Shown piece by piece: positions 27,821 through 33,680 of a stretch of 64,000 nucleotides of DNA. Under the pieces are notes generated by a model, which was given only the letters and a program-made list of their open reading frames with translations, made no database searches and had not been told where the DNA came from. The stretch's first letter is position 1. Each line of letters begins with the position of its first letter. The position numbers and the translations under genes were made by a program. The stretch is from Pseudomonas anuradhapurensis (GTDB lineage Bacteria > Pseudomonadota > Gammaproteobacteria > Pseudomonadales > Pseudomonadaceae): positions 1,432,001-1,496,000 of the forward strand of contig NZ_CP077097.1 in NCBI RefSeq assembly GCF_014269225.2. The letters are read 5' to 3'.

Positions 27821-29011
27821 TTACTGGCTCTTAGCTCGTACCACTTTTGTACCACTTTCCAGCGCTTTCAGCTTATCAAGCTCGGCCCAGTCGTTAGGCG
27901 AGTTGATCCACTTGGCATACGTGGAAAGCAAAACCTGCACACTGTGCCCTAGTTGCGCGGCAATAAATGCCGGGTTCATGCCGGCCATCAGGCACATAGT
28001 CGCATAAGTGTGGCGCGTGTCGTACATCCTGCGGCGCCTGATTCCAAGCTTCCGCAGCGCTGCCAGCCAGTAGCGTTTTTGACTCGTCTCGGAGCGAATG
28101 AACATCTCCGAGCGGTCACCCAACCCACTGGGCGCGAACAAGTAATCTGAACGAGCCTCGGTGAGCGGTCTGGCTTTTTCGAGCGCATGCAGGGCGCGAT
28201 CGTTCAATAAAACTTTCCGGGTGCGCTTCGTTTTGGTGCGATCCTGGATTACTCCACGGATCTGAATGCGGCGCACGTTAGCAGTCTTTCCGCGGCTGTC
28301 GATCTCGCTCCAGCGCAGAGCCATCACCTCTCCAGGCCGCATACCGGTGTAGAAACAGAACTCGAAATAGGCCGCGTAAATTGCCGTCATGCCGCTCGTC
28401 GTCTCGTACAGATGAGCAATGATCGAATCCGCTTCATCCTTGGTGAAGGGGTCGACCTCGCGCTTCGGAACCTTCGCGCCAGGGATAGACAGGGCGGGGT
28501 TTCGGACGATTAGCTCATCAATGACCGCCTGCTGGAAGATTGATACCAACAGCCCGACCACTCCTTTTCGACGGATCGGGGAAGTCCATTTGATGTCGTT
28601 CATGATCTTGCGCAGCCGCACCGACGTGATGGTATCGATAGGTAGCTCGGCCAGGTACGGTATCCAATACACCTGTAACGCGGATCTGTAGTTTTTGCGG
28701 GTACCCTCAACGATCTGCAGGCTGTTGAGCCAGTCCTGAGCATAATCGAAGAAGACCGGCATGGTTTGTTCCTGAATCACCACGCTGCGGGTATTCGGGA
28801 ACAGCTCGGCGTATTTCTCTGCTGTCAGAGCGCCGAGCTTGTCCAGGCCCTTTACTTGAGCACGTAAACTCGCTGCTGCTGCGATTCCTTTCGCGGTCTG
28901 AGGGAAGGGGAGCGTCTCGCAGCACCGCTTCTTGTTCCAGGTGAAGCGAATTCGGATTGAGCGCCCAACAAGCTCGACTCCGGCCGGCAGGTCCACAGGC
29001 TTTCGATCCAT
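27821..29011 (-). CDS. int: Phage tyrosine recombinase integrase
   Basis: 396 aa. The catalytic set is readable: Arg225 (TGMRPGE), Lys264 or Lys266 region, Arg333-His334 (YDTRHTYAT), His356 (LGHS) and nucleophile Tyr365 (STYAKW). An N-terminal SAM-like core-binding domain spans about 80-175. It reads toward the host junction, as in lambda, and would catalyse integration and, with Xis, excision. Its 5' end overlaps the excisionase frame by 160 bases. Confidence 0.95.
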   Translation of the reverse strand: MDRKPVDLPAGVELVGRSIRIRFTWNKKRCCETLPFPQTAKGIAAAASLRAQVKGLDKLGALTAEKYAELFPNTRSVVIQEQTMPVFFDYAQDWLNSLQIVEGTRKNYRSALQVYWIPYLAELPIDTITSVRLRKIMNDIKWTSPIRRKGVVGLLVSIFQQAVIDELIVRNPALSIPGAKVPKREVDPFTKDEADSIIAHLYETTSGMTAIYAAYFEFCFYTGMRPGEVMALRWSEIDSRGKTANVRRIQIRGVIQDRTKTKRTRKVLLNDRALHALEKARPLTEARSDYLFAPSGLGDRSEMFIRSETSQKRYWLAALRKLGIRRRRMYDTRHTYATMCLMAGMNPAFIAAQLGHSVQVLLSTYAKWINSPNDWAELDKLKALESGTKVVRAKSQ

Positions 29012-29221: not shown

Positions 29222-29305
29222 TTAGGTTGTCGAGTTGATCTGCCCAAAGGTTTCTCCTTGGTTCTGAAGGGCATCCCGCAATAGGAGTAGGGCGGTCTGA
29301 CTCAT
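29222..29305 (-). CDS. Possible 27-aa leader or small protein
   Basis: ATG 29305 overlaps the stop of the Arc-like gene (ATGA). The frame encodes 27 aa ([13 protein letters not shown]...) ending at 29222, just before the xis ribosome site. Stop-start overlap argues for translation by coupling. Length and lack of known homology keep this tentative. Confidence 0.35.
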   Translation of the reverse strand: MSQTALLLLRDALQNQGETFGQINSTT

Positions 29306-29520
29306 GGCTGCTGCTCCTTTGCTTTATTGGCCATGACCAACGCACTGAGCAGCACCTGCTGGCGCTGCTGCATGTTCAGGTATTCCCGGATCGCTTTCAC
29401 GATCAGCGAGTTCATTGAGCGGTCATCTGCGTCCGCAGCGCTGGCTACTTGGTCACGCATGCCGTCAGGCAGGCGAACAACGAATTTGTCAGCGGAGCGG
29501 GAGCCGTATTCAAAGGCCAT
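29302..29520 (-). CDS. Arc-family ribbon-helix-helix DNA-binding protein
   Basis: 72 aa from ATG 29520. [17 protein letters not shown] forms the N-terminal strand and first helix of an Arc/MetJ fold, and [19 protein letters not shown] the second helix. Proteins of this type bind operators as dimers of dimers (P22 Arc, Mnt). It overlaps the csrA stop by 11 bases and is followed immediately by a 27-codon frame, so the genes are coupled within the pL operon. Its target is unknown, and may be one of the phage promoters. Confidence 0.85.
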
Positions 29521-29701
29521 GGCTGACCTCCTGTGCCTTTTGCGCTTGGATGCGCTCGTAGATTTCTTGGCGGTGCACGGCCACACCTTCAGGCGCTTCG
29601 ATACCCAGGCGAACCTGCATTCCGTTTACATCCAGCACCGTCACGCTGATGTCATCGTTGATGCGGATGGTTTCGCCTACCCGGCGAGTGAGGATCAACA
29701 T
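29510..29701 (-). CDS. csrA: Prophage-encoded CsrA/RsmA RNA-binding regulator
   Basis: 63 aa from ATG 29701 with AAGGA nine bases upstream. It keeps all canonical RNA-contact residues: Leu4, Arg6 and Arg7 in [10 protein letters not shown] and Val42-His43-Arg44 in VAVHRQEIY. It should therefore bind GGA-loop RNAs like RsmA or RsmE, unlike the divergent host RsmI at 22342. It lies in the leftward pL operon, so it would be expressed at induction or at low level in lysogeny and could alter host secondary metabolism, biofilm or motility control. Confidence 0.9.
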
Positions 29702-29791
29702 GGTCAATGTCCTTTTTGAAGCAAGCCGATGGCCTGCCGCAGTTGTTGGCTTTCGCAAAAATCAGGGTTGGGTCAGGTCAGGCGCGCAGCG

Positions 29792-30202
29792 TCACGCCAC
29801 CGCCAAGGCGCACTCGGCGCGCCGGGTTGCTACACGGGTTTCGATCTGTCGCTCTCCGCCACTACCGCCACGGCGGATTCGCATTGCCTGGTCGTCGCCG
29901 ATCATTCCGTGGATAGCCATTATTAACGCCATGGCGGTAGCGGCAGGGCTGATGATCTGACGCTTAAACGCTTCGAGCACCAGGCCGCGAATTGTCTTGG
30001 CGCCGAGCTTTAGACGAGCCGCCTCCAGGCGTTTCTCGACAGTTTTCGGAGCAATCCCCATTACTTGGGCGACCTGCTTCACAGTCAGGTCAGCAGCAGC
30101 AAGCAGCGTGGCTTCCAATTCGCGTGGAGCCAGGCCCATGCCGAGGTGTCCGGTCCAGCCGCTGGTGGTGATGGTGTTGATGGTGTTGATGGTGGTTGTC
30201 AT
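29792..30202 (-). CDS. Stand-alone LuxR-type HTH protein
   Basis: 136 aa from ATG 30202 with GGAG six bases before. Residues about 25-85 are a GerE/LuxR helix-turn-helix (LAPRELEATLLAAADLTVKQVAQVMGIAPKTVEKRL..KLGA). No receiver or ligand domain is present. The N-terminus is a TTTINTINTITT low-complexity stretch encoded by a short direct repeat, and the tail is Arg-rich. It is the first gene after pL, the place of lambda N. It could be an early regulator, but N-like antitermination cannot be inferred from an HTH. Confidence 0.75.
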   Translation of the reverse strand: MTTTINTINTITTSGWTGHLGMGLAPRELEATLLAAADLTVKQVAQVMGIAPKTVEKRLEAARLKLGAKTIRGLVLEAFKRQIISPAATAMALIMAIHGMIGDDQAMRIRRGGSGGERQIETRVATRRAECALAVA

Positions 30203-30234
30203 TGGAAGCTCCATGCTCGGTTGCGATGGAGGCG

Positions 30235-30275
30235 AGATTACAAATCAAATTTGTACTTTGCAAATGATAATTGTA
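30235..30275 (-). promoter_or_regulatory. pL promoter with two CI/Cro-type operators
   Basis: Leftward promoter TTGCAA (30263-30258), 17-base spacer, TAATCT (30240-30235). A perfect 17-bp dyad TACAAATCAAATTTGTA spans 30239-30255, and a second dyad TGCAAATGATAATTGTA spans 30259-30275. They overlap the -10/spacer and -35 respectively, so a bound repressor would block RNA polymerase. Half-sites recur at 31096-31138. Confidence 0.75.
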
Positions 30276-30282
30276 GTTCGGG

Positions 30283-30309
30283 GCAAAAAAAACCAGGCGT
30301 GGCCTGGTT
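30283..30309 (-). terminator. Intrinsic terminator of the repressor gene
   Basis: AACCAGGC/GCCTGGTT stem with a 3-base loop. In the leftward direction it is followed by eight T residues. It sits between the cI stop and pL. Confidence 0.9.
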
Positions 30310-30320
30310 TGTCGGTTCTC

Positions 30321-31085
30321 TCACCACAGCACAGAGGACCAGAAGACCCTTCCGATTATGGTGATTTCTTTCTCTTCCATGTCGTCGAGGGTGTATTCCT
30401 CGTCTGGGTACTCTTCTCGATTGAAGCTGCGCAAGCGTATGCCCCCGTCCGGTAGGCGATGCAGCATCTTGATTCGAAGATGTCCATTGTGATTGACGGC
30501 ATAAATTTTGCCGTCACGCACAACAGTGGAACCGGTGTCGACGCCTACCGTGCTCCCATCAGGAAGCGCTGGTGCCATGCTGTCACCGTGAACCGTTACA
30601 CATACAGCTTGATCAAATTGCACCCCTTGATTGCGCAGGGTTAGCTTGCCAAACCGGATTTTCCTTCTAGACGACAGCTCTACAACAGTTCTGCCGGAGC
30701 CAGCTGAAAGCTCCACTTCACGCAAAAATGGTACTTCCACCTCATCATCCTCAAGAGGGGTATCGTCATTCCAAGGCGACAGTTTTTCAGCCATGCTCGC
30801 TTCATGCTTTGGGCGAGGCTTTTCAAGCATCTCCCGAATCAGGTTAAGGGTGTTGCCGCCATTCCCTGGCCCGCCTCGAGCCTCAAGGGTGGCCCCAATG
30901 AGGAGCTCAGGTGCAACGCCAATTGCCTGGGCGATATCCCCTAGCATGCTTGCTCTCGGTACCGAGCGGCCCGACTCCCATGCCTGGACGGATTGCGGGG
31001 TGATGCCAAGTCGGCGCGCCAGCTCAGACTGGTTGATGCCGGCAGCTTTTCTCCCCGTCGAGATGAGTTCAGCGACTGTTTTCAT
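30321..31085 (-). CDS. CI-like repressor, S24/LexA autoproteolytic type
   Basis: 254 aa from ATG 31085. HTH_3 DNA-binding domain at residues 4-60 (GINQSELARRLGITPQSVQAWESGR), then a linker and a peptidase domain. The latter has the cleavage pair Ala128-Gly129 (LSAGSG), Ser169 in HGDSMAP and Lys206 in HLRIKML. RecA-stimulated self-cleavage would induce the prophage on DNA damage. The gene lies between pL and pR with its own terminator. It lacks a ribosome site; a TATTCT box 7 bases before the ATG suggests a nearly leaderless mRNA, as for lambda cI from pRM. Confidence 0.93.
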   Translation of the reverse strand: MKTVAELISTGRKAAGINQSELARRLGITPQSVQAWESGRSVPRASMLGDIAQAIGVAPELLIGATLEARGGPGNGGNTLNLIREMLEKPRPKHEASMAEKLSPWNDDTPLEDDEVEVPFLREVELSAGSGRTVVELSSRRKIRFGKLTLRNQGVQFDQAVCVTVHGDSMAPALPDGSTVGVDTGSTVVRDGKIYAVNHNGHLRIKMLHRLPDGGIRLRSFNREEYPDEEYTLDDMEEKEITIIGRVFWSSVLW

Positions 31086-31095
31086 GGGGCAAGAA

Positions 31096-31162
31096 TACAA
31101 CCTTATGTTGTAGGGGTTCACTGCAAATATCGTTTGTAATTTTAAAATTACGACTGTAGTCT
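31096..31162 (+). promoter_or_regulatory. pR promoter/operator region (OR)
   Basis: Perfect-arm dyad TACAAC-CTTAT-GTTGTA (31096-31112) and imperfect dyad TGCAAATATCGTTTGTA (31122-31138), both 17 bp. The rightward promoter TTGTAA (31134-31139), 17-base spacer, TAGTCT (31157-31162) overlaps the second dyad at its -35. A 16-bp palindrome GTAATTTTAAAATTAC (31136-31151) fills the spacer and may be a third site. Confidence 0.72.
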
Positions 31163-31195
31163 CTCGGGCAACGTCATAAGTCCGTGAGAGACACC

Positions 31196-31486
31196 ATGAG
31201 CATTCAGGTCATGGCTTCGGTAATCAAAGCAGTCGGCAGTCAAACTGCTCTCGCAAAGATTCTGAAGTGCACCCCGCAAAACGTTCAGCGCATGTGCGCC
31301 ACCGGCCGCGTGCCTCCAAAGCATGTTTTGCGTATTGAATCGGCATCGGGGGTATCTCGCGGTCTTATTCGTCCTGATTTGTACCCGGAAGCTGCCCTCA
31401 CCTTGGACGGAAGCTTACCCGCAGGAGAGGTAAGTGGTCAGCCGTACAAACCCTCTGTGAATCTATCCAGTGCTGGAGGTGTGTAG
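31196..31486 (+). CDS. YdaS/Cro-like HTH protein
   Basis: 96 aa from ATG 31196 (GAGAG before it). The sequence VIKAVGSQTALAKILKCTPQNVQRMCATGRVPPKHVLRIE is the YdaS antitoxin-like Cro/CI HTH type found first in the rightward operon of many lambdoid prophages. It then shows IRPDLYPEAAL, also typical. It probably acts as a Cro-like repressor of cI transcription. Its stop overlaps the start of the next gene, itself a Cro homologue. Confidence 0.82.
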   Translation: MSIQVMASVIKAVGSQTALAKILKCTPQNVQRMCATGRVPPKHVLRIESASGVSRGLIRPDLYPEAALTLDGSLPAGEVSGQPYKPSVNLSSAGGV

Positions 31487-31713
31487 TGAAGAAGCGCGCC
31501 GATCCACTCAGGGCCTTTTTTGACGGAAAGGATATCGCTTTGGCGGATTTCGTCAGAGCCCAAGGGCGCAGTAATGCGGCGAAAGCTCTAGGTTGCACGC
31601 CGCCTGCTATTTCAAAAGCGATTGGGGCATCAAGAGAAATCTACGTTGTGGTTCAGGAGGGCGGTACCGCTCAAGCATTTGAAATCAGCCGCTTTCCGGG
31701 CCGGGGCACCTAG
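31486..31713 (+). CDS. Lambda Cro-type protein
   Basis: 75 aa from GTG 31486, with GGAGG seven bases upstream. ALADFVRAQGRSNAAKALGCTPPAISKAIGASREIYVVVQ lines up with lambda Cro ([38 protein letters not shown]), and the C-terminal strand ends in PFPG-like RFPGRG. Cro would bind the 17-bp operators and favour lytic growth. GTG 31486 overlaps the YdaS-like stop (TAGTG), implying coupling. Confidence 0.8.
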   Translation: MKKRADPLRAFFDGKDIALADFVRAQGRSNAAKALGCTPPAISKAIGASREIYVVVQEGGTAQAFEISRFPGRGT

Positions 31714-31905
31714 AACTATCGCATTTTTTGCAATGACCCCGTTCATCATCTACGGCGAAACCAGAGGTATTCTTTCGCCGCTGGTAGCAACTAGGAATCA
31801 ACACATGCATCCAGCAGCTGCGTCACCTAAAGGATTTACCAATCCGCCCTAAGCGGGAGCGGACCCGCCAATTTCTGCATCTGGCTTAGCCCAGAAAGCA
31901 GAAAA

Positions 31906-31930
31906 CCCGGCTTCGCAGGCCGGGCTTCTT
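31906..31930 (+). terminator. Early intrinsic terminator (tR1-like)
   Basis: CCCGGC-TTCGCAG-GCCGGG followed by CTTCTT, 193 bases after the Cro-like gene. It would limit pR transcription into replication genes. No other gene is seen in 31714-31985. Confidence 0.65.
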
Positions 31931-31985
31931 AACCAGCTCCTTGCAGGGAGCCTTTTGTGAATCTTCGTCTGTGGAGGACGATATC

Positions 31986-32303
31986 GTGCACCCAAAAAAT
32001 ACCACCACGCCATCACCGGCGCAACTGCCGAACCTCAAGAAGATGGAGTTCGGCGACCCTGATCTCCAGGGGGGGCGCTTGTTTGTTATCCAGGAAGGCG
32101 TCGACCTAGTCGAGGGTTTGCGCTTCGCAGCGGACCTCGGTGACGGGGTTCACCAACTTGCTAATCGACTGGCTGCCTCCATCAACGATGGTGAGCTGGC
32201 ATACCTCAGTGAGGTACGCGCGCTGGCGTTCCTTGGGGAGGTCGCAAGTACGCTGACCCGTGCCAGTCAGTACGCGCTGCAAAAAATGGGAGAGCAGCCA
32301 TGA
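31986..32303 (+). CDS. Early phage hypothetical, possible DUF3077-like
   Basis: 105 aa from GTG 31986, chosen because GGAGG sits 8 bases upstream. The body FVIQEGVDLVEGLRFAADLGDGVHQLA..ASINDGELAYLSEVRALAFLGEVASTL is helical. It recalls small Pseudomonas proteins annotated DUF3077/DUF6124, but I am not sure. There is no membrane segment or Cys. It starts a run of genes with overlapping stops and starts that reaches Q. Function unknown. Confidence 0.6.
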   Translation: MHPKNTTTPSPAQLPNLKKMEFGDPDLQGGRLFVIQEGVDLVEGLRFAADLGDGVHQLANRLAASINDGELAYLSEVRALAFLGEVASTLTRASQYALQKMGEQP

Positions 32304-32614
32304 GCACTTTACCCATGACGCGCGCCCATGAGTTCAACACTCAGGGCTTGCACTCAGTATTCGAGGCCGTTGGCGGCATCCCAATTTACGAGTCGCTCGA
32401 CGCTGCCACTGATCGCCTTGAGGCAGTCGTGGCCGGCCTTCGGGAGCTGATGCAAGAGCCAGCCGTCACGCAACACGCCACGCTCGTCTTCTATGCAGCG
32501 GAATCAGCGCTGGCGCTTGTGTATGCAGCTCACGCCGGAGTCGATCCTCAGCAGGATGGCGCGCCACAAAATGCAGAATCTCCAGTTCGTGGCGCGAGAG
32601 GTGCAGCATGCTGA
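32300..32614 (+). CDS. Early phage hypothetical (104 aa)
   Basis: ATG 32300 overlaps the previous stop (ATGA). A helical middle (LDAATDRLEAVVAGLRELMQEP) and a hydrophobic helix (TLVFYAAESALALVYAAHAG) are visible. It shares the general layout of the preceding gene (a helical stretch followed by an Ala-rich helix), suggesting distant duplication. The last seven bases overlap the next gene. No function recognised. Confidence 0.6.
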   Translation: MSTLPMTRAHEFNTQGLHSVFEAVGGIPIYESLDAATDRLEAVVAGLRELMQEPAVTQHATLVFYAAESALALVYAAHAGVDPQQDGAPQNAESPVRGARGAAC

Positions 32615-32904
32615 CCGTACGAACTGAACTGATGCCAGCGCTGGCTGCTGGGGTGATCGTCCAGGATGTAACCCTTTCCGCAGAAGAGATCGCCAAGTTC
32701 AACGAGGCCCGGGAGGCGTTCCGAGCAATCAAAGCCTTGTATTGGGCGCATGTCGTGCCTTCGCTCGGCGGATTCGGCAATCCTGTAACCGGGGAGCTTG
32801 AACGCCTGTTTGAGCGGGTCGTTTTCGACACGCGCAATTTCCTTTACCCGCACCGCGACGCGGCTGCCTTCCACGAAGCAAAGGATGTGGGAGGTGGGGT
32901 ATGA
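32608..32904 (+). CDS. Early phage hypothetical (98 aa)
   Basis: ATG 32608 with GAGAGG seven bases upstream. Acidic helical protein (LSAEEIAKFNEAREAFRAIKALYWAHV) with no known motif. It overlaps neighbours on both sides by a few bases, consistent with a real, coupled gene in the pR operon. Confidence 0.6.
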   Translation: MLTVRTELMPALAAGVIVQDVTLSAEEIAKFNEAREAFRAIKALYWAHVVPSLGGFGNPVTGELERLFERVVFDTRNFLYPHRDAAAFHEAKDVGGGV

Positions 32905-33680
32905 GCCTAGTCACCATCCACAACACTCAGCTGCCCGTCGTCGAGTTTCGCGGTCAGCGTGTCGTCACTCTGGCGATGATCGATCAGGTACATGGCCGTC
33001 CCGAAGGTACTGCCAAACGCAACTTCACGGAGAACCGCCGGCGGTTTGTTGATGGGCGCCATTGCTTCGAAGTAGGTCGGGACGAAATTCGTACCGACCT
33101 TCCTGAAGCAACCTTCAGCCCATACGCGCCGAAGGGCGTCCTGATGACTGAGCGTGGTTACCTGATGCTGGTGAAGGCCTTCACCGACGACCTGGCATGG
33201 GAGGTTCAGGAGCAGCTGGTGGATCGTTATTTCCGGCCTACTCCTGAGCAGGCTCCCGCGCTGCCTACCGACTACATCACGGCTCTGGAACACCTGCTGG
33301 CCTCGAAGCGCTCCGAGCAGTTGGCGCTCGAGCAGCGGGATCAGGCGATCGCCACCAAGGCCGAGATCGGCAGCCGGCGCGAAGCCACGGCGATGGCCAC
33401 CGCTTCCGCAGCGGTCCGCAAGGTCATGCACCTGGAGAACGAGCTGGGTCGTGGTTGCCAGCACGCCACTGTGACGGCGGTTGAAAAGGCCGCCCATCGG
33501 AGCTTCGGCAGTCAGGGTTTCCGCCCGCTCAAGAACTGGTGCGACAGCCACGGCGTGGCCGCCCCAAAAGTCCATGACCCTCGATTCGGCTGGGTTCGCT
33601 CCTGGCCGGCTGCCGCCTGGGCAGCCGTTTACCAAATTGACCTGGCCGATCTGTTCGGCGCCGTGGGAGAACCCGCATGA
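32901..33680 (+). CDS. ORF6N-domain antirepressor-like protein
   Basis: 259 aa. The N-terminal ORF6N domain (residues about 10-95) shows LPVVEFRGQRVVTLAMIDQVHGRPEGTAKRNF, FVDGRHCFEV and GVLMTERGYLMLVKAF. A helical linker with a coiled-coil patch (ITALEHLLASKRSEQLALEQRDQ) follows, then a C-terminal domain of its own. KilA-N/ORF6N proteins bind DNA, and several act as antirepressors that inactivate CI-type repressors. Here it lies in the early operon, fitting that role, though it could act on replication. Confidence 0.78.
   Translation: MSLVTIHNTQLPVVEFRGQRVVTLAMIDQVHGRPEGTAKRNFTENRRRFVDGRHCFEVGRDEIRTDLPEATFSPYAPKGVLMTERGYLMLVKAFTDDLAWEVQEQLVDRYFRPTPEQAPALPTDYITALEHLLASKRSEQLALEQRDQAIATKAEIGSRREATAMATASAAVRKVMHLENELGRGCQHATVTAVEKAAHRSFGSQGFRPLKNWCDSHGVAAPKVHDPRFGWVRSWPAAAWAAVYQIDLADLFGAVGEPA

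Follow-up and report, generated by a model that had tools for sequence, protein, structure and literature searches.

Putative lambda-type operators and an unusual double Cro at a Pseudomonas prophage control region, with dyads that accompany one type of CI recognition helix

The operators of phage lambda are spaced by 24 and 23 bp, and its pRM transcript is leaderless, starting at or near the ATG. In the E. coli prophages CP-933P (PaaR2-YdaS-YdaT) and Rac (RacR-YdaS-YdaT), the two published accounts describe footprints of the repressor and of YdaS that overlap over pRM/pR, and a further control region at pL (PMC8630535, PMC5917428). For CP-933P, where the overlapping footprints are those of PaaR2 and YdaS, the same account gives four 18-bp inverted repeats with the consensus GTTTAGTAA, plus three pseudosymmetric operators (PMC8630535). 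On contextual grounds, Jobling has made the case for YdaS being a Cro rather than a toxin (PMC5917428). The title of entry 5w8y presents the Cro proteins of Xfaso 1 and Pfl 6 as Cros with different folds, and the description of the Pseudomonas aeruginosa phage YA3 includes CI and a Cro of the P22-Cro type in a lambda-like region (PMC7326022).

The locus considered here lies in a stretch of 64,000 nucleotides of Pseudomonas anuradhapurensis, referred to as the window, and has the following features, with coordinates counted from the first letter of the window.

27821-29011, integrase, with the lambda-type control region to its right
29302..29523, minus strand, Arc-type DNA-binding protein of the leftward operon
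29510..29704, minus strand, CsrA/RsmA-type translational regulator of the leftward operon
29792..30202, minus strand, first pL gene, a GerE/sigma-region-4-type HTH protein
30235..30240, minus strand, predicted pL -10, TAATCT, 17-nt spacer
30239..30255, no strand, OL1, 17-bp dyad TACAAATCAAATTTGTA, seen in the sequence, right arm (in the pL sense) entering the pL -10
30258..30263, minus strand, predicted pL -35, TTGCAA, at a fixed place in the OL2 arm
30259..30275, no strand, OL2, dyad TGCAAATGATAATTGTA, seen in the sequence, with the pL -35 inside its right arm (in the pL sense)
30290..30310, minus strand, terminator-like hairpin after cI and before OL
30321..31085, minus strand, CI-like repressor with HTH_3 (2e-13) and Peptidase_S24 (5e-23) domains
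31092..31097, minus strand, putative pRM -10-like TATTCT
31096..31112, no strand, OR3, dyad TACAACCTTATGTTGTA, seen in the sequence, adjoining the cI start
31122..31138, no strand, OR2, dyad TGCAAATATCGTTTGTA, seen in the sequence and in relatives, with the pR -35 inside its right arm
31134..31139, plus strand, predicted pR -35, TTGTAA, with TTG here in 44/46 loci
31142..31158, no strand, putative degenerate OR1-like site TTAAAATTACGACTGTA, at the OL1-OL2 distance (20 bp) from OR2
31157..31162, plus strand, predicted pR -10, TAGTCT, 17-nt spacer
31196..31486, plus strand, Cro1, a YdaS/Xfaso 1-type Cro, helix TPQNVQRM, close to that of CI
31486..31713, plus strand, Cro2, the second pR gene, of the lambda-Cro family PF09048, helix CTPPAISKAI

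We consider it highly probable (about 0.88) that the dyads serve as OL and OR in a lambda-type lysogeny switch, with CI and Cro1 as the predicted binders, and the locus as a whole is a well-supported candidate for a lambdoid switch with an unusual double Cro. Several traits of a lambda-type region are found: the same type of dyad lies on both sides of cI, the first gene divergent from it is a Cro (of the YdaS/Xfaso 1 type), and the repressor combines an HTH with a LexA-type autocleavage domain. In the CI-like protein the helix TPQSVQAW begins at residue 29 and is followed by LSAGSG at 126, GDSM at 167 and LRIKM at 203; we take Ala-Gly 128-129, Ser169 in GDSM and Lys206 to be the LexA-type autocleavage residues. 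To the left, the open reading frame of the first pL gene opens at 30214, but, going by the sequence, a better ribosome site precedes the ATG at 30202. The presence of a prophage CsrA/RsmA beside Arc-type and GerE/sigma-like genes makes control of host CsrA targets possible, and in the rightward operon an ORF6N antirepressor-type protein (32901-33680, PHROG matches) may counter CI. There was no CII-type match among the five rightward proteins scanned; CI itself matches one PHROG named CII-like, through its HTH.

The four 17-mers listed by the initial annotation are present letter for letter at 30239, 30259, 31096 and 31122, two on each side of the CI-like gene, and have the common form TRCAA-N7-TTGYA. 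Scored against the half-site TRCAAM that it proposed as common to them, the 64-kb window contains six sites with at least 11/12 matches, four of them these dyads, where about 1.15 such sites per 64 kb are expected in random sequence of the window's dinucleotide make-up. In 5000 trials with random sequence modelled on two short AT-rich gaps, one site arose 67 times, two sites once and never more, against the observed four. Over the whole genome (5.39 Mb, a single contig), TRCAAN7TTGYA occurs at 17 places and a reversed-pattern control at nine; four of the 17 fall inside these 900 bp, and the other 13 are near background. Where the description of the locus has to be changed is in the spacing, which was said to be that of lambda: the centre-to-centre distances in the window are 26 bp (OR3-OR2) and 20 bp (OL1-OL2) versus 24 and 23 bp in lambda. 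OL has two sites, a third not being among the best 40 sites listed for the window. The lambda-type OL/OR set around the CI-like gene stands insofar as 17-bp operator-type sites lie on both sides and overlap likely leftward and rightward promoters, but not in its spacings.

The relationship between repressor and operator was examined in 159 loci with a CI relative, which reduce to 76 non-redundant loci (upstream regions <85% identical). Left out of the 159 were hits starting after residue 20, ending before residue 55 or lacking 100 nt upstream, together with L001 and L155, which are two copies of the window. The recognition helix is xPQx[V/I]Q, or its Ala variant SAQAVQ, in 47 of the non-redundant loci, and of another kind in 29. 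A perfect dyad is present upstream of cI, within 110 bp, in 46 of the 47 loci of the helix class, and 42 of them have at least two sites that score at least 9/10; upstream of the CIs with other helices, 0/29 have a site of at least 9/10, and the reversed motif occurs in 0/47 helix-class loci. The Fisher value for this link is 3.6e-20, which overstates independence because the loci are related. Whole-protein similarity does not explain the link because 23 of the 29 CIs with other helices are 46-57% identical to the window CI in the aligned part and are still without dyads; six CIs that are just 26-36% identical in the aligned part but bear the helix have them. Five of the 47 helix-class loci, including phage vB_PaeP_Tr60_Ab31 (Ab31), have fewer than two sites at 9/10, and L009 has no perfect site; L018, with another helix, has a single 11/12 site 864 nt downstream of cI. 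A YdaS-type match is present in all 47 helix-class loci and in 4/29 of the others, those with the helix TPM.VS. Among the related loci compared, the dyads precede cI only where its product carries the xPQx[V/I]Q helix.

The rule is borne out by a search of DNA alone, in which two dyads 25 bp apart were sought, with no protein information, in 398 genomes of the genus of the window. This two-site pattern is strict and the window itself, with 26 bp, is not matched by it. It was found at five places, versus none for the reversed pattern, each of them immediately upstream of a CI-type gene whose helix reads PQAVQ or PQSVQ (PQ[AS]VQ). L190 and L193 were already in the locus set, and L189, L191 and L192 were outside it; L191 repeats the sites of L150, so that the truly new places are L189 and L192. 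In L192 the operator pair and a CI with PQAVQ occur without a recognisable YdaS gene on the other side, which counts against the dyads and YdaS always travelling together; a long unrelated open reading frame opens there on the opposite strand, ∼230 nt away. In 293 genomes of the wider order, eight of them of the same genus, the two-site pattern was not found.

The arrangement of the sites is also retained in relatives. In the loci of the CI relatives L031-L034 (89, 81, 65, and 57% identical), the cores of all four dyads are kept and other letters vary, the one exception among the cores being a single arm base changed at one L034 site. The centres of OR3 and OR2 are separated by 25 bp in 45 of the 47 non-redundant loci; the two loci with 26 bp are the window, which has one extra G, and L037, which has a poor OR3. 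On the downstream side of cI, for which 45 loci offer at least 600 nt, a perfect site is present in 32 and a pair in 23, with a distance of 20 bp in 21 of these pairs, so that OL is less regular than OR across loci. In L110, L120 and L143, dyads downstream of cI lie 13 bp apart, overlapping each other, in addition to a 20-bp pair. Nucleotide similarity to named phages was limited to partial matches, none reaching 80% of the query; the nucleotide-matched phage records are all from Pseudomonas (62/62), as are the genome loci of relatives (11/11). An Rfam scan gave three matches in all, every one far under the gathering score.

The promoters proposed for the locus are not of the ordinary consensus type, a possibility that was rejected when a sigma-70 consensus scan (9/12) of 29500-32500 found none, versus 1.5 in shuffles, and their hexamers, TTGTAA-17-TAGTCT for pR and TTGCAA-17-TAATCT for pL, are weak. 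Since no consensus promoter was found, the claim rests on conserved geometry, and here the proposed 17-base spacing holds: a -10-like TA...T lies exactly 17 nt from the TTG of the OR2 arm in 39/46 loci, and other spacings from 10 to 29 occur in 0-5/46. The number of loci for this count, and for the co-variation count below, is 46 and not 47 because the helix of L150, RPQSVQ, is outside the pattern used. Aligned without gaps, the pL and pR cassettes are identical at 31/49 positions, a value reached by none of 20,000 base shuffles. No Shine-Dalgarno sequence was seen before the cI ATG, and the cI mRNA from pRM is likely to be leaderless, with its start at or near the ATG.

When pL is overlaid on pR, OL1 falls on 31142-31158, and the site at this position is probably a real but degenerate OR1, which would make the set of operators probably five, in place of the four clear dyads initially annotated. 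That each side has just two functional operators, and that the OR1-like site is the conserved -10 region read as a half-site, is a substantial possibility that falls somewhat short of an even chance. The right arm of this site overlaps the -10, and so only the left arm is informative. In favour of such a misreading, the left arm scores 4/6 in the window, 2/6 in L144 and 0/6 in L145; against it, the left arm scores 4-5/6 in six of the seven nearest relatives, the seventh, L107, having 3/6. The core similarly matches at 7/10 positions in the window, and at 5/10 and 4/10 in L144 and L145, but at 10/10 in L125, at 9/10 in L034, L103, L002 and L150, and at 8/10 in L031 and L033, and the offset from OR2 is 20 bp, equal to that between OL1 and OL2. 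In many other loci the third site lies 33 bp on, in place of 20.

Two Cro-like proteins of different families are encoded to the right of the CI-like gene, and only the first has a recognition helix like that of CI (TPQNVQ in Cro1, TPQSVQ in CI). Cro1 belongs to PF15943 (YdaS; E 6e-12, above the cut-off), its likeness to P22 Cro being below the cut-off, so that, as in RacR and PaaR2 systems, a YdaS-family protein faces the repressor. A profile built from 39 sequences of the Cro1 family finds Xfaso 1 Cro (3bd1) at E 7e-13 and CP-933P YdaS at E 7e-4, its matches including 8c7k and 8co2. The predicted model of Cro1 (mean pLDDT 77) is all-helical, with five helices and an unordered tail, and is nearest to Xfaso 1 Cro, with a TM of 0.87 by target length but a Foldseek E of only 0.03. 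The helices of CI and Cro1 also co-vary in 46 loci: where CI has Lys or Asn after the motif, loci with Lys in Cro1 outnumber those without it by 11 to 1, and otherwise the numbers are 5 versus 29. The four loci whose YdaS-type protein has the helix TPM.VS (L019, L020, L022 and L024) also have a different CI helix, and they lack the dyads. The first pR gene is likely to be the partner Cro of the dyads, and its product a predicted binder.

The Cro2 gene overlaps that of Cro1 by one base, after GGAGG, and its product is a member of the lambda Cro family (PF09048, 59.3 bits with a cut-off of 32.7) that matches lambda Cro chains (E 3e-6) and Pfl 6 Cro (E 4e-4). Its place, 365 nt from cI, is second and not first as for lambda Cro, and it stands where RacR and PaaR2 systems have ydaT. 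Of 36 lambda-Cro-family hits in the loci, a count to which 17 further listed places without a locus of their own did not contribute, 28 are in first place, 44-157 nt from a divergent long open reading frame. For L165, L181 and L182 no such divergent open reading frame was found, with a CI match ∼155-170 nt away in L165 and L182. In L181, which is outside the clade of Cro2, the lambda-Cro-like domain ends a 156-residue open reading frame that follows a YdaS-like gene at ∼1.5 kb. The remaining five hits represent four loci (the window, L034, L156, and L157, the same as L013) and are in second place, 365-411 nt away. In a FastTree tree of 40 short sequences, weak elsewhere, these four loci and four proteins from a large protein search form one clade with a support of 0.93, the gene position being available for one of those four proteins. 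The relatives of Cro2 among 5.8 billion proteins number four, one being the window's own; none was confirmed in viral contigs, in a scan that missed L034, which entered by its CI.

Cro2 is preceded in the window and in L034 by a YdaS-type gene with PQNVQ, in L157 by a gene that looks YdaS-like by eye and has SQPTVS, and in L156 by a lambda-type Cro. Across 13 loci inspected, the position behind the YdaS-type gene is occupied twice by Cro2, twice by a KilA-N-like gene (identified by eye), and otherwise by different genes or by no clear open reading frame; the KilA-N-like gene of L031 and L063 marks Cro2's slot as a variable position of the pR operon. Cro2 thus persists through changes of the specificity cassette, an argument against its reading these operators. 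It is improbable, although Cro2 is the sole protein here in Pfam's lambda Cro family, that the dyads are operators for which Cro2 is the functional Cro, the YdaS-type first gene having some other function, for example a CII-like or toxic one: the relatives other than L034 have the dyads with a YdaS-type gene and without a Cro2 match, the Cro2 helix TPPAIS is unlike the TPQSVQ of CI to which the TPQNVQ of Cro1 is close, and the Cro2-clade genes of L156 and L157 follow first Cros with other helices, the CI of L157, also with another helix, being without dyads. Cro1 remains the preferred partner of CI at the dyads, and Cro2 is predicted to act elsewhere than at the CI operators. A further proposal, which we put forward as tentative and somewhat doubtful, is a split by fold in which the all-helical Cro1 would be exchanged as a cassette with the CI head and the operators, and the lambda-fold Cro2 would keep its second place through these exchanges and control a separate site, Cro function being divided between a changeable and a constant part.

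A dyad, RGATAC-N5-GTATCY, lies just after Cro2 in L034, L156 and L157; it was defined post hoc and no claim is made for it as the Cro2 operator. The window matches it at 9/12 positions at 31756. L034 and L156 look related at this dyad, which can equally form a hairpin with a 5-nt loop, at the place of a nut-type boxB; a nut-type RNA element and a Cro2 site are both candidates for the element. The dyad/hairpin is at 3335-3375 of L034, 1708-1748 of L156 and 1427-1465 of L157, and is weak and larger in the window (31740-31796). Further downstream of Cro2, at 31890-31951 and in the place of lambda tR1, the stretch CCCAGAAAGCAGAAAACCCG is common to the four Cro2 loci; in the window it is followed by terminator-like hairpins.

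Although prophage promoters under host control are known, the dyads are very unlikely to belong to a host regulator (LexA-like or other) in place of CI, a candidate that was rejected because the sites follow the CI helix, coming and going with it between prophages of one host genus, and the rest of the window's own genome has dyads at close to the control level.

In the lambda-type switch favoured here, CI dimers in the lysogen would occupy OR2, the putative degenerate OR1 (31142-31158) and OL1-OL2, and would cover the weak pR and pL, whose predicted -35 elements sit within an arm of the first site and whose -10 elements abut the second. CI at OR2 may help the transcription of its own gene from pRM, which appears weak and probably leaderless, and the terminator after cI would keep this transcript out of OL. 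RecA-type cleavage of CI, by way of its S24 domain, would open pR, after which Cro1 would fill OR3 beside the cI start and shut off pRM. Cro2, with its lambda fold and its different helix, would act elsewhere.

The distinct immunity specificity initially attributed to the locus is borne out to the extent that its half-site differs from that of lambda, but the same layout and half-site recur in many Pseudomonas prophages and in phages PS-1 and Ab31; in addition to the window, 45 non-redundant loci, among them PS-1 and Ab31, have such dyads together with such CI helices. The dyads are likely to be the on/off switch of a whole Pseudomonas phage immunity class and not of a single phage, and phages of this class are predicted to be mutually immune, provided that the inner bases play no part. 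As a prediction, the operator set is sound but ordinary; what goes beyond it is the helix-operator rule and the tandem of two Cro families. A literature search at the title and abstract level, with most subscription journals outside its scope, found nothing on this operator motif or on tandem Cros. With the helix-operator link, sequence is enough to predict the immunity groups of Pseudomonas prophages, and cross-immunity can be tested directly even for phages that look very different. Through the double Cro, relatives of both Cro folds, a model of protein fold change, are adjacent to each other in one operon, where the tandem of Cro1 and Cro2 lets the division of labour between two folds be measured.

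Compared with lambda, the locus is similar in having 17-bp dyads on both sides of cI, a -35 carried by the arm of the upstream site with the -10 beside the next one, a CI with HTH and S24 domains, and a probably leaderless pRM transcript. It differs in its half-site (TRCAA) and its spacings, in having at OR two clear sites and one degenerate and at OL two visible sites (lambda has OR1-3 and OL1-3), in the YdaS type of its first Cro, and in the terminator-like hairpin between cI and OL. PS-1 and Ab31 have a YdaS-type Cro, the same type of CI helix and the same class of dyad, with two perfect dyads in PS-1 and one in Ab31, but their third site is 33 bp from OR2 (9/10 and 8/10, respectively) and not 20 bp as in the window, and neither has a match to Cro2. 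F116 and LESphi2 share with the window a lambda-fold Cro beside the CI gene, and LESphi2 also a sigma-like gene to the left of cI, but in both phages the gene for this Cro comes first from pR and is not preceded by one of the YdaS type. CP-933P and Rac are similar in that a CI-type repressor faces a YdaS-type Cro, but their second gene is the CII-like YdaT, whereas that of the window is a lambda-fold Cro. Finally, Xfaso 1 Cro (3bd1) corresponds to the Cro1 family, and the Cros of lambda and Pfl 6 (2pij) to Cro2; the window holds relatives of both Xfaso 1 and Pfl 6 Cro in adjacent genes of one operon.
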